A DNA stretch of 64,000 bases from contig JAPKBW010000005.1 in assembly GCA_028823235.1 (NCBI GenBank), positions 124,001 to 188,000 of the forward strand, read 5' to 3'. The position numbers and the translations under genes were made by a program. Shown one piece after another: positions 47,498 to 53,878 of this stretch. How positions within the stretch are numbered: position 1 is the stretch's first letter; every line of letters starts with the position of its first letter. Origin of the DNA: Longimicrobiales bacterium. GTDB taxonomy: Bacteria; Gemmatimonadota; Gemmatimonadetes; Longimicrobiales; Gaopeijiaceae. A model generated the notes under the pieces. The model did not search any database and was not told where the DNA came from. It worked only from the letters and a program-made list of their open reading frames with translations.

Positions 47498-47857
47498 GTG
47501 ACTTTGGCTGATCCCGGCACCCTCATTTTCGACGATGGCAATGCCATCAGCAGGGAGGCTCTCAACTGCCACCTGCGCCTTCTCAAGGAGACGGTCGAGC
47601 AGGAGTTGGTCGGTCTCCGACTGCACAGCGCCTTCAGCCTCCTAGGTCAACTTGACGGTCTAGATCAAGTCATATTCACTCTCGAAGTCATCGACCGGAA
47701 TGGACGTCTCACGGGTTTGACGAAAGCCGACTTCGTTGAGTGCATTGCCTTAGGATTCAAAGCTGACGCTCTGATATGCCGAACCGTAGCGGCGGAAGAC
47801 TCTGCTGCTCAAGTCAGGAACCTGGGGTTAGCAGTGCGGCCAGTTCTTCCGGTGTGA
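47498..47857 (+). CDS. Uncertain 119-residue open frame, possibly a remnant
   Basis: A GTG-started frame with a moderately protein-like composition (SREALNCHLRLLKETVEQEL, RLHSAFSLLGQLDGLDQVIF). I recognise no family and there is no ribosome site. Its last 44 bases overlap the 3' end of the convergent helicase gene. The upstream region (47303-47497) also has no feature I can name. It could be a real small protein, a decayed gene, or chance. Confidence 0.25.
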   Translation: MTLADPGTLIFDDGNAISREALNCHLRLLKETVEQELVGLRLHSAFSLLGQLDGLDQVIFTLEVIDRNGRLTGLTKADFVECIALGFKADALICRTVAAEDSAAQVRNLGLAVRPVLPV

Positions 47858-49073
47858 GGTCCAAGGCAGACTTGGCGCCCATGCCTCCAGCGATACGCTT
47901 CTTGGGGCCCTTGAACTTCGACTTGCCCTCAGTGGGAGGTGCGCCCGCATAATCGAACTCGTCGAGGTGGATCTTGTCCACACCGCGACCGAGGCGGTGC
48001 TCCAGACTCTTGATCGCCCCCAGATCGCCAGCGGTGACAAATGTGATCGCTGTTCCAGTCGCGCCTGCGCGACCGGTTCGTCCGATGCGGTGAACGTAGT
48101 CTTCCGGATCAAGCGGGACATCGTAGTTCACGACATGGGTAATTCCATCGACGTCGAGCCCGCGCTGGGCGACGTCGGTGGCGACCAGCACGCGAACTTC
48201 ACCCTGGGCGAACCGCTCCAGGGCACGCGTCCGAGCCTTCATGTGCTTGTTGGAGTGCATCGCATCGACCTTGATGCCTTCGCGGCTGAGCATCCCTTCC
48301 AGGACGTCGGCGCCGGCCTTCGTCCTCGTGAAGATCAACACATGATCCCATCCCGGCTCCTTGATAAGACTGCGAAGCAGATCGTTCTTCTTGTCGGGCT
48401 TCACCGAGTAGAAGCGCTCGTCGATGCCGTCTGCGGTCGTGCCCGGAGGCGTCGCCTCGATCCAGAGGGCTTCGTTCGTCAGGCGCAAAGCGAGGTCGTG
48501 AACGCCGTTTGGCATCGTCGCGCTGAAGAGCATCGTCTGACGCTTCTTCGGCATGCCTCGAAAGACATCCTCAATCTGAGGCCGGAAGCCCATGTCGAGC
48601 ATCCGATCAGCCTCGTCGAGTACGAGGTAGTTCACCTTGCTCAGGTCAACACGCTTCGACTGCATGTGGTCGATGAAGCGCCCAGGGGTAGCGACAATCA
48701 CCTCGTAGCCCTGCTCGAGAGCTTTGATTTGATGGGTGTAGCTGACGCCCCCGAAGATCGCCTCAGAGCGAATGCTCGTGCCCTTAGAAAGCTCCACGGT
48801 GTCATCCGAGACCTGCTGAGCCAACTCACGGGTCGGACAGAGCACGAGTACCTGCAGGCCTCCTCCGATGTTGATCCGTTCCAGAGCTGGAATCATGAAG
48901 GCCGCGGTCTTCCCGGTCCCGGTCTGAGCGATGCCGACGACGTCGGATCCGGTCAGTCCGGCAGGAATTCCCTGGGCCTGAATAGGAGTGGGGACTTCCC
49001 AGCCAAGCGCCTCGACGGCAGCCAGGCGTTCGGGTGATAGCCCAAGATCAGAAAAGCGTTTTGTATCCGGCAC
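47814..49073 (-). CDS. DEAD-box RNA helicase
   Basis: About 419 residues from a GTG at 49073 with GGAAGG eight bases before it. The Q motif (FSDLGLSPERLAAVEALGWE, then PTPIQAQGIP) is followed by motif I AQTGTGKT, motif Ia CPTRELAQQV, motif II LDEADRMLDMGF, motif III LFSATMPNG, motif V VATDVAQRGLDVDGI and motif VI YVHRIGRTGRAG. This is an intact ATP-dependent RNA helicase of the RhlE type. The C-terminal extension is short and basic (KSKFKGPKKR) and ends with a small LTPEELAALL helix. The longer upstream frame to 49226 lacks the family start. Confidence 0.95.
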   Translation of the reverse strand: MPDTKRFSDLGLSPERLAAVEALGWEVPTPIQAQGIPAGLTGSDVVGIAQTGTGKTAAFMIPALERINIGGGLQVLVLCPTRELAQQVSDDTVELSKGTSIRSEAIFGGVSYTHQIKALEQGYEVIVATPGRFIDHMQSKRVDLSKVNYLVLDEADRMLDMGFRPQIEDVFRGMPKKRQTMLFSATMPNGVHDLALRLTNEALWIEATPPGTTADGIDERFYSVKPDKKNDLLRSLIKEPGWDHVLIFTRTKAGADVLEGMLSREGIKVDAMHSNKHMKARTRALERFAQGEVRVLVATDVAQRGLDVDGITHVVNYDVPLDPEDYVHRIGRTGRAGATGTAITFVTAGDLGAIKSLEHRLGRGVDKIHLDEFDYAGAPPTEGKSKFKGPKKRIAGGMGAKSALDLTPEELAALLTPGS

Positions 49074-51971: not shown

Positions 51972-52274
51972 ATGGCCGGTTACCAACGCAAGACGGCATT
52001 CTCGCCCCAGGAAATTCTGGAGAGAGCACAGGGATTTCTCCCTGACATGCTCGGATTGAGCCGTTCGAAGGAGTCCTCGCACAGCGCTACGTACAACGGC
52101 GCCGAGGGCACCGTCACAGTATCTGCGCATCGCCACGGCCCCTACACAGATGTAGTTGCGAACACCGACCGACTGCGTACGTCGAGGCTCGATTACGAAG
52201 TGCAGCGATTCCTTAATCAGCTGCCGTACGAGCCCGGAGACGCAGGTGGTCCCGGCTCAGGCGCGCCGAGCTGA
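51972..52274 (+). CDS. Small hypothetical protein upstream of helicase-like gene
   Basis: A 100-residue protein starting at ATG 51972. It has a basic N-terminal helix (QRKTAFSPQEILERAQGFLP) and a C-terminal half with an amphipathic strand-helix pattern (SHSATYNGAEGTVTVSAHRH, VVANTDRLRTSRLDYEVQRF). A Gly/Pro tail ends it. It precedes the helicase-like gene by ten bases and is likely co-transcribed. I do not recognise the family. The longer frame to 51609 is antisense to the DsbA-like gene's real frame and was rejected. Confidence 0.55.
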   Translation: MAGYQRKTAFSPQEILERAQGFLPDMLGLSRSKESSHSATYNGAEGTVTVSAHRHGPYTDVVANTDRLRTSRLDYEVQRFLNQLPYEPGDAGGPGSGAPS

Positions 52275-52284
52275 AGAGAACAAC

Positions 52285-53817
52285 GTGGAAAACTTTGAAG
52301 ACCTCGGCGTCGCACCCGAGCTAGCCGAGGCACTCGCTGCCGAAGGCATCGAAACCCCTACCCCCCTCCAGAGAGATGCCATTCCGATCATTCGGAAAGG
52401 CAACAACCTCGTCCTGGAGGCGGGCCCAGGCAGTGGTCTCCTCGTCGGATGGGCGACTGGTCTGATTGAGCGGATCGAGGCGGCCGGTGAGGGCCCCCGG
52501 GTCTTGGTTCTAAATTCAACGGACGAAGCCGCCGATCAGTTGGCCGAGGCCATGGCTCGCCTGACGGTCGGTACCGACCACCGTGTGGCGGCCCTTGGCG
52601 GAGCCTGGGTGCGGCCCGAGAAGGCCGACATCGTCTTTGGGACGCCCACGAGCATCCTGCAAGTCGTGGCCGAGAACAATCTATCGCTCGCACTCGTTGA
52701 TGCAGTTGTTGTCGATCAGGCACAGCTCCTCGAGTCAGTCGGGCGTCTTCCGGGGGTTGAGCAGGTCTTCGATTACCTGCCCGAGGGTACACAGCGTGTA
52801 CTGTCTGCCTTGCCCATAACGCCGGCAGTTGCTGATCTGGTGGATCGGGCTTTCAAACGAACGGTGACAATTCCGTCGACAATGAACGAGGTCACCGCAA
52901 GCCGGGGCACCGTTCGCTTTCGGATCACACCTGAGCCGCGTGAAGCGGCTGCCCTGAATGTCATCGAATCGCTTCTGGGTGACGGAGCCCGGCACGCGCT
53001 GGTCTACTGCCGGACAGAGGACCGAGCGGCTGATATCGGCGATTACCTCACGCTGCACGGATTTACCGCAGGGGCACCGGGTGACGAGTCTGTGCCGGTC
53101 TGGCTGGGCGTGGACGCGCTCGAGGCCCGTGCCCAGGCTAAGGATGTCGAAGGTGTGGTTGTCGTGAGCTGCGACTGCCCCGCTGATGACGACACATTGG
53201 ATCGCCGTCATTCGATGGGCGCCGACAACGTCGTGGTGCTGCTTCCGCGAGAAGTTGCGCATCTCAAACGACTCGGGCGACGCACCGGCTATGAGACAGT
53301 CCCGTTTCCACCGAAGTCCGGGCCGAACGACAGTGTCGCTCAGCTGCGTGAGTCGATCGATCGCGCTATGGAGACGGAGGACATCACCCCCTACTTGGTG
53401 GCGCTCGAGCCTCTACTGGCCCGCTACGATGCGGCCGAGATCGCGGCAGCGGCCCTCGCGCTGCTCAGGAAGAAGACAGCGCCCGCAGCTCCGGCATCGC
53501 CAGCTCAGCCACACCGTGCTGCGGCACAAGCAACCGGGACGCCCTCCTGGGCGAAGCTCTTCATCACCGTGGGTGAACGCGATGGTCTCGAGAAAGGCGA
53601 CCTGCTCGGAGCGATTACCGGCGAAGCCGGAATCGATGGCGCTGCGGTCGGGCGCATCGACATCAAGGAGAGCCACTCGGTCGTCGAAGTTCACGACGCG
53701 GTCGCCCGGAATGTGATCCAGGCACTCAACGGGACGTCGATCAAAGGGCGTTCGGCCCGCGTTGACTTCGACCGGCCCCGGAAGACACCAGCACGGCATC
53801 CCAAGTCTCGTAACTGA
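52285..53817 (+). CDS. Catalytically degenerate DEAD-box-like protein with DbpA RNA-binding domain
   Basis: A 510-residue protein with a GTG start and an intact frame. The Q motif is conserved: NFEDLGVAPELAEALAAEGI, then ETPTPLQRDAIPI. Motif I is lost: AGPGSGLLVG replaces AQTGTGKT, so the ATP-binding lysine is gone. Motif II is VVVDQAQLLE instead of DEAD. Motif III-like SALPI replaces SAT, and no HRxGRxGR is present, only KRLGRRTGYETVPF. The C-terminal 80 residues (AKLFITVGERDGLEKGDLLG, AITGEAGIDGAAVGRIDIKE) are a well-kept DbpA/RBD (RRM-like) RNA-binding domain. It therefore probably binds RNA, perhaps ribosomal, without ATP-driven unwinding. Confidence 0.85.
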   Translation: MENFEDLGVAPELAEALAAEGIETPTPLQRDAIPIIRKGNNLVLEAGPGSGLLVGWATGLIERIEAAGEGPRVLVLNSTDEAADQLAEAMARLTVGTDHRVAALGGAWVRPEKADIVFGTPTSILQVVAENNLSLALVDAVVVDQAQLLESVGRLPGVEQVFDYLPEGTQRVLSALPITPAVADLVDRAFKRTVTIPSTMNEVTASRGTVRFRITPEPREAAALNVIESLLGDGARHALVYCRTEDRAADIGDYLTLHGFTAGAPGDESVPVWLGVDALEARAQAKDVEGVVVVSCDCPADDDTLDRRHSMGADNVVVLLPREVAHLKRLGRRTGYETVPFPPKSGPNDSVAQLRESIDRAMETEDITPYLVALEPLLARYDAAEIAAAALALLRKKTAPAAPASPAQPHRAAAQATGTPSWAKLFITVGERDGLEKGDLLGAITGEAGIDGAAVGRIDIKESHSVVEVHDAVARNVIQALNGTSIKGRSARVDFDRPRKTPARHPKSRN

Positions 53818-53835
53818 CCGCCGGGCAGACCGTCC

Positions 53836-53878
53836 AAAAAAAGAGACCGTGTCGCTTTCGCGACACGGTCTCTTTTTT
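53836..53878. terminator. Strong bidirectional rho-independent terminator
   Basis: A run of A, then GAGACCGTGTCG, a short CTTTCG turn, CGACACGGTCTC, and a run of T. Arms 53836-53854 and 53861-53878 pair almost perfectly over 18 bases (A tract with T tract included). It lies 18 bases after the helicase-like gene (+) and 76 bases beyond the HU gene end (-), and serves both strands. Confidence 0.92.

Follow-up and report, generated by a model that had tools for sequence, protein, structure and literature searches.

The gene at positions 52285 to 53817 of the window (the whole 64,000-nucleotide stretch that was analyzed) raises the question of whether a protein laid out like a DEAD-box RNA helicase, and lacking the motifs for ATP hydrolysis, is the product of a decaying gene or has been kept by selection for a role that does not use ATP. 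The best reading, to which we give a probability of about 75%, is that it is a pseudo-helicase that binds RNA independently of any ATPase activity and may act on 23S rRNA during assembly of the 50S subunit.

Layout of the gene and state of its catalytic motifs

The domain order, RecA1, RecA2, DeaD-type dimer region, and DbpA RNA-binding domain, is that of DeaD/DbpA-type DEAD-box proteins (Table 1), and in the alignment the column of the GTG start is common to nearly all orthologues. In Pfam, the DbpA RNA-binding domain scored 82.3 bits (E 2.6e-23) and the DeaD dimerization domain scored 25.8 bits (cut-off 23), whereas the DEAD match was weak at 47.9 bits, compared to 176.6 bits for the neighboring helicase, and there was no Pfam match to Helicase_C. 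The best NCBIfam match was DbpA, at 144.3 bits, below its equivalog cut-off of 524. The AlphaFold model (65 sequences) had a pLDDT of 91.4 and a confident helicase fold, with both RecA-like lobes present (Z 27 to 31 to DEAD-box structures). RecA1 matched the RecA1 domain of DeaD (5gju) with an rmsd of 1.6 over 197 residues, and the best Foldseek match in the PDB was E. coli DbpA (7pli). The full-length frame and the preserved C-terminal DbpA domain that a preliminary description of this DNA had noted were therefore both borne out.

Table 1. Positions of the pseudo-helicase gene, its domains, and two neighboring genes in the window
Feature	Position	Strand	Evidence and remarks
Pseudo-DEAD-box protein, 510 aa, GTG start	52285..53817	+	Open frame, Pfam, orthologues, alignment
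RecA1-like domain, residues 1-200	52285..52884	+	Q motif kept; Walker A AGPGSGLL and motif II VDQA degenerate; Z 31.0 to 5gju
RecA2-like domain, residues 201-345	52885..53319	+	Without motifs V and VI; family-specific stretch EDRAADxGDxLxLHGFxAGxPGD...WLGVD
DeaD-type dimerization region, residues 346-400	53320..53484	+	PF25399
DbpA RNA-binding domain, residues 419-497	53539..53775	+	PF03880; guanine-pocket motif VGRI at residues 455-458
Conserved 100-aa upstream protein	51972..52274	+	Synteny, profile matches, model pLDDT 89; probably co-transcribed
Intact RhlE/CshA-like DEAD-box helicase	47814..49073	-	Pfam, NCBIfam, neighborhood

The motifs were compared among 80 orthologues (58 from f1, the window's own family, and 7, 9, and 6 from f2, f3, and f9, other families of the class), 25 more degenerate proteins from families f4, f6, f7, and f10, and 19 intact paralogues. 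In the window protein, AGPGSGLL stands in the place of the Walker A GxGKT, VDQA in that of the motif II DEAD, and SALP in that of the motif III SATx. Motif V (ARGLD) is not recognizable, and other residues occupy the place of motif VI (HRIGRxGRAG), where about six residues have been deleted. The reported absence of Walker A, motif II, and motif VI thus held in the alignment, and motifs III and V proved to be degenerate as well. All 80 aligned orthologues have degenerate motifs II, III, V, and VI, and the same kind of loss across all of them is more than would be expected by chance.

Several trends were apparent among the individual residues. First, the Walker A lysine is present in all 19 intact paralogues and in none of the 58 f1 or 7 f2 sequences, and it is kept in 9 of 9 f3 sequences (as GKT) and in 5 of 6 from f9. 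Since these last two families keep Walker A, ATP binding without hydrolysis is possible there, and the protein might be a nucleotide sensor, a switch that binds ATP and does not hydrolyze it. However, this is improbable as an account of the family, because the lysine is lost in every f1 and f2 sequence, that of the window included. The sub-clades in which Walker A is kept without the DEAD motif are L024, L025, L027, L029, L030, and L068-L071, and L059-L064. Second, 56 of the 58 f1 sequences have Q, G, or D in place of the motif II glutamate, which is present in 19 of 19 intact helicases; VDEAD is kept in one f4 sequence (L103). The threonine of SAT has become proline in 58/58 f1 sequences and is changed in most other pseudo-copies, and in no pseudo sub-clade does the second arginine of the motif VI HRxGR (19/19 in the intact set) rank among the three most frequent residues. 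Third, most of the arginines by which motifs Ia and Ib contact RNA are missing from the pseudo-copies. This means that neither ATP hydrolysis nor an ATP-gated RNA clamp should remain. Across 65 orthologues, the Q motif and two P-loop glycines (G49 and G51) do not vary, as might be expected of an ATPase still active through unusual residues, but with no conserved motif II glutamate, SAT, motif V, or arginine finger such activity is very hard to credit. Finally, some positions show conservation of a new kind. A good example is the WP fixed in place of the motif II EA (AWPE-like) in 14 out of 14 f6/f10 proteins (L110-L118, L126, L128-L131), where the motif II position behaves as if it had gained a new role. 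The RecA2 lobe of the f1 proteins likewise carries a newly conserved stretch (Table 1).

Descent of the family and selection on it

Relatives of the pseudo-helicase were found in 37 of the 39 nearest genomes (E<=1e-20). With the stricter threshold of E<=1e-40, a search of 295 class genomes gave relatives in 119, belonging to families f1, f2, f3, and f9, and none of these matches contained an internal stop. A contig search that reached close relatives only gave five Gemmatimonadota orthologues, the named relatives placing the window in this phylum, and one ordinary Omnitrophota helicase, and no DbpA domain was found in three genomes outside the class. Among the f4, f6, f7, and f10 proteins that were tested, Pfam matches to DEAD were slight or absent. 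With the DbpA domain removed, their cores matched the profile of the window family at E 1e-29 to 1e-44, compared to 1e-13 to 1e-24 for intact helicases. Genes for AspAT and/or HU flank 21 of 25 DbpA loci in these families, as they do in the window, compared to 0 of 15 intact-paralogue loci.

In a tree of 84 proteins, the 63 sampled pseudo-copies formed one clade (SH-aLRT 100) apart from the 19 intact helicases, and this single clade persisted when the motif columns were left out. The trees were of the "quick" type and the stem branch is long (1.1), which leaves the unity of the clade more secure than its precise position; a tree of the DbpA domain only (75 columns), which needed two changes of label, was too short to decide. 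Independent losses in each family are disfavored by the one clade obtained without motif columns, the common flanks, and the profile matches. Judging from these comparisons of sequence, the pseudo-helicases of the class are a single old family, spread across families of one Gemmatimonadota class.

The ratios of dN to dS were low, from 0.03 to 0.43 by YN00 in ten close pairs and, for the ten pairs with the smallest dS, from 0.06 to 0.30 by NG86. Additional f3 pairs, which have a high G+C content, gave NG86 ratios of 0.4 to 0.7, where the method probably underestimates dS. For the window gene itself, the nearest relative is 65% identical, and its own dN/dS is therefore not directly computable. 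Conservation is highest in the DbpA domain, with a mean of 0.71 compared to 0.58 to 0.60 for the lobes. The broken frames and dN/dS near 1 of a pseudogene are not seen in the family, and local decay of the window gene is rejected by the orthologues in relatives, the open frames, and the dN/dS values. The check proposed in the preliminary description, motif conservation and dN/dS among homologues, thus found the same loss in a clade under purifying selection, and the opposing outcome, homologues with intact motifs together with relaxed selection, did not appear. With the motif loss in 80 orthologues, dN/dS well below 1 in close pairs, and no internal stops, it is very likely that the protein is a pseudo-helicase selected for a non-ATPase role, as that description had argued from the sequence.

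The pseudo-helicase is not present everywhere. Three f1 genomes (G107, G205, and G263) gave no match in the E<=1e-40 search. In the near relative G107 (L149, G107:C13:50056-56352), the AspAT, DsbA-like, small, and HU genes are all present, and the pseudo-helicase is cleanly missing between the last two; as read from the locus, this is a natural deletion of the pseudo-helicase gene with the 100-aa gene retained. Several f7 genomes carry the intact paralogue only, and these together with the clean loss in G107 mean that the pseudo-helicase is not universally needed. Such a loss, the missing catalytic motifs, and an evolution faster than that of the neighboring helicase (in L033, 65% identity for the pseudo-helicase compared to 82%) are what a slowly decaying helicase gene without function might show. 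However, frames that stay open throughout the class, dN/dS values below 1, membership of a single old clade, and the new conserved motifs in f1 and f6/f10 leave slow decay with very little probability.

RNA binding, possible role, and known relatives

In YxiN (I436, G437, and I439) and Hera (V461, G462, and V464), the pocket residues of the RNA-binding domain bind guanine through their main-chain amides, and K463 of Hera stacks on the neighboring guanine (PMC3695512). The pocket glycine is retained in 105 out of 105 pseudo-copies. In 103 of the 105 it is followed by R or K, compared to A, T, S, or G in all 19 intact helicases; at this position E. coli DbpA has K. This pattern suggests that RNA binding is under a constraint of its own, with no particular target indicated; hairpin 92 is not singled out by the guanine pocket, which DbpA-type domains share in general, those of Hera and DeaD among them. 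Binding of RNA through the DbpA domain is likely from this conservation. Hairpin 92 of the 23S rRNA and 50S assembly are the leading guess for the target because DbpA uses the same domain there (PMC7973409), and by this analogy a role in 50S assembly has a chance somewhat short of even.

The most likely course of events is as follows. A copy of a DeaD/DbpA-type helicase lost its ATPase activity before diversification of the class and has been retained as a structural RNA-binding protein. Its DbpA domain would dock on RNA, most plausibly on 23S rRNA around hairpin 92, as in DbpA and YxiN, and the inert core, which would not cycle between open and closed states, might serve as a scaffold or placeholder, perhaps a dimeric one. 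This scaffold could hold a pre-50S (or other RNA) intermediate or recruit factors, perhaps with the 100-aa protein. Of the 38 f1 genomes with a DbpA domain, 32 show no DbpA-domain protein other than the pseudo-copy (positions were compared by eye, and drafts may hide intact copies). A bolder version, which we think less likely than not, is that this class-wide inert family took over from an active DbpA-type helicase. If true, then in most f1 genomes, where the one DbpA-domain protein is inert, a passive scaffold bound to rRNA, with a dedicated small partner, would carry out a step of large-subunit assembly that is normally driven by an ATP-dependent helicase.

The dimer region retained in the pseudo-helicase also allows a role as partner or regulator, in which it would use this region to heterodimerize with an intact helicase, of the DeaD/DbpA or the RhlE type, which it would target or restrain. 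Candidates for such a partner exist: the source genome, a 3.1-Mb draft of 90 contigs, carries an intact DeaD/DbpA-type helicase (L001) on another contig, and an RhlE-type gene lies within the same conserved block. However, no intact DbpA-domain paralogue was seen in those 32 of the 38 f1 genomes, and the RhlE-type neighbor has no Pfam dimer domain match, which makes a partner role unlikely compared to the ATPase-independent RNA-binding pseudo-helicase.

Pseudoenzymes are well known among kinases, whereas very few helicases have been described as such, judging from a full-text search on pseudohelicases. That search, which covered only a minority of subscription papers, turned up no DEAD-box pseudohelicase from a bacterium; the individual pseudohelicases in the literature that it covered were Utp25 and bacterial PriA. 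Utp25, from the eukaryotic small-subunit processome, also has the fold of a helicase but vestigial motifs, in a context of RNA, and those motifs were shown by mutation to be dispensable (PMC9539457). The window protein likewise carries vestigial catalytic motifs on a helicase fold, and by analogy Utp25 is its nearest named functional parallel, although Utp25 is eukaryotic and has mutational proof, whereas the family here is known from sequence and model. PriA of Deinococcus radiodurans is a bacterial helicase relative without unwinding activity, but it is a DNA replication-restart protein of another helicase family (PMC4504706). Among active enzymes, E. coli DbpA and B. subtilis YxiN, helicases recruited to hairpin 92 of 23S rRNA, share with the pseudo-helicase the domain order, the DbpA domain, and the guanine-pocket motif (V/I)GxI (pocket residues in PMC3695512). 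They differ from it in the core, which in the pseudo-helicase is without ATPase and RNA-clamp motifs and scores 144 bits against the DbpA cut-off of 524. Helicases of the DeaD/CshA/Hera type have in common with it the DeaD_dimer region, by which it might dimerize, and a C-terminal RNA-binding domain, and differ in that the catalytic motifs are lost in the pseudo-helicase. The family forms a natural series, with active paralogues in some genomes, graded motif loss, and replacement motifs. Its gradation, from two sub-clades with Walker A to one sequence with DEAD, lets one ask which functions of a DEAD-box protein need ATP.

The upstream 100-residue gene and the surrounding block

The suggestion that the small protein encoded just upstream may belong with the pseudo-helicase is supported by synteny. 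In most f1 and f2 loci its gene is the one immediately upstream, at 43 to 84% identity and often with a TGATG stop-start overlap. The distance grows to about 1.2 kb in f9 and to a few kilobases in some f4 genomes, and profile matches to the 100-aa protein were found in 133 of 149 genomes of the class. The predicted fold is compact beta-alpha. There was no sequence match in Pfam, NCBIfam, or the PDB, and the Foldseek matches of the model were weak, the best (E 1.5e-3) being to KA1-like regulatory domains; with matches this weak, neither a KA1-like nor any other function is claimed. Across the class, the 100-aa family is better conserved than the pseudo-helicase.

The block conserved in f1 contains genes for the RhlE-type helicase, an LMW phosphatase, AspAT, a DsbA-like protein, HU, and IF-1 (Pfam names). 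Its helicase, with a Helicase_C match of 113.4 bits in addition to that for DEAD, is the intact DEAD-box enzyme that it had been taken for. No Rfam family was found near the pseudo-helicase gene, and a promoter/terminator scan around it gave nothing useful. A long perfect hairpin with flanking A and T runs lies at positions 53834 to 53878, between the convergent pseudo-helicase and HU genes; read by eye, and not listed by the scan, it looks like a bidirectional terminator.
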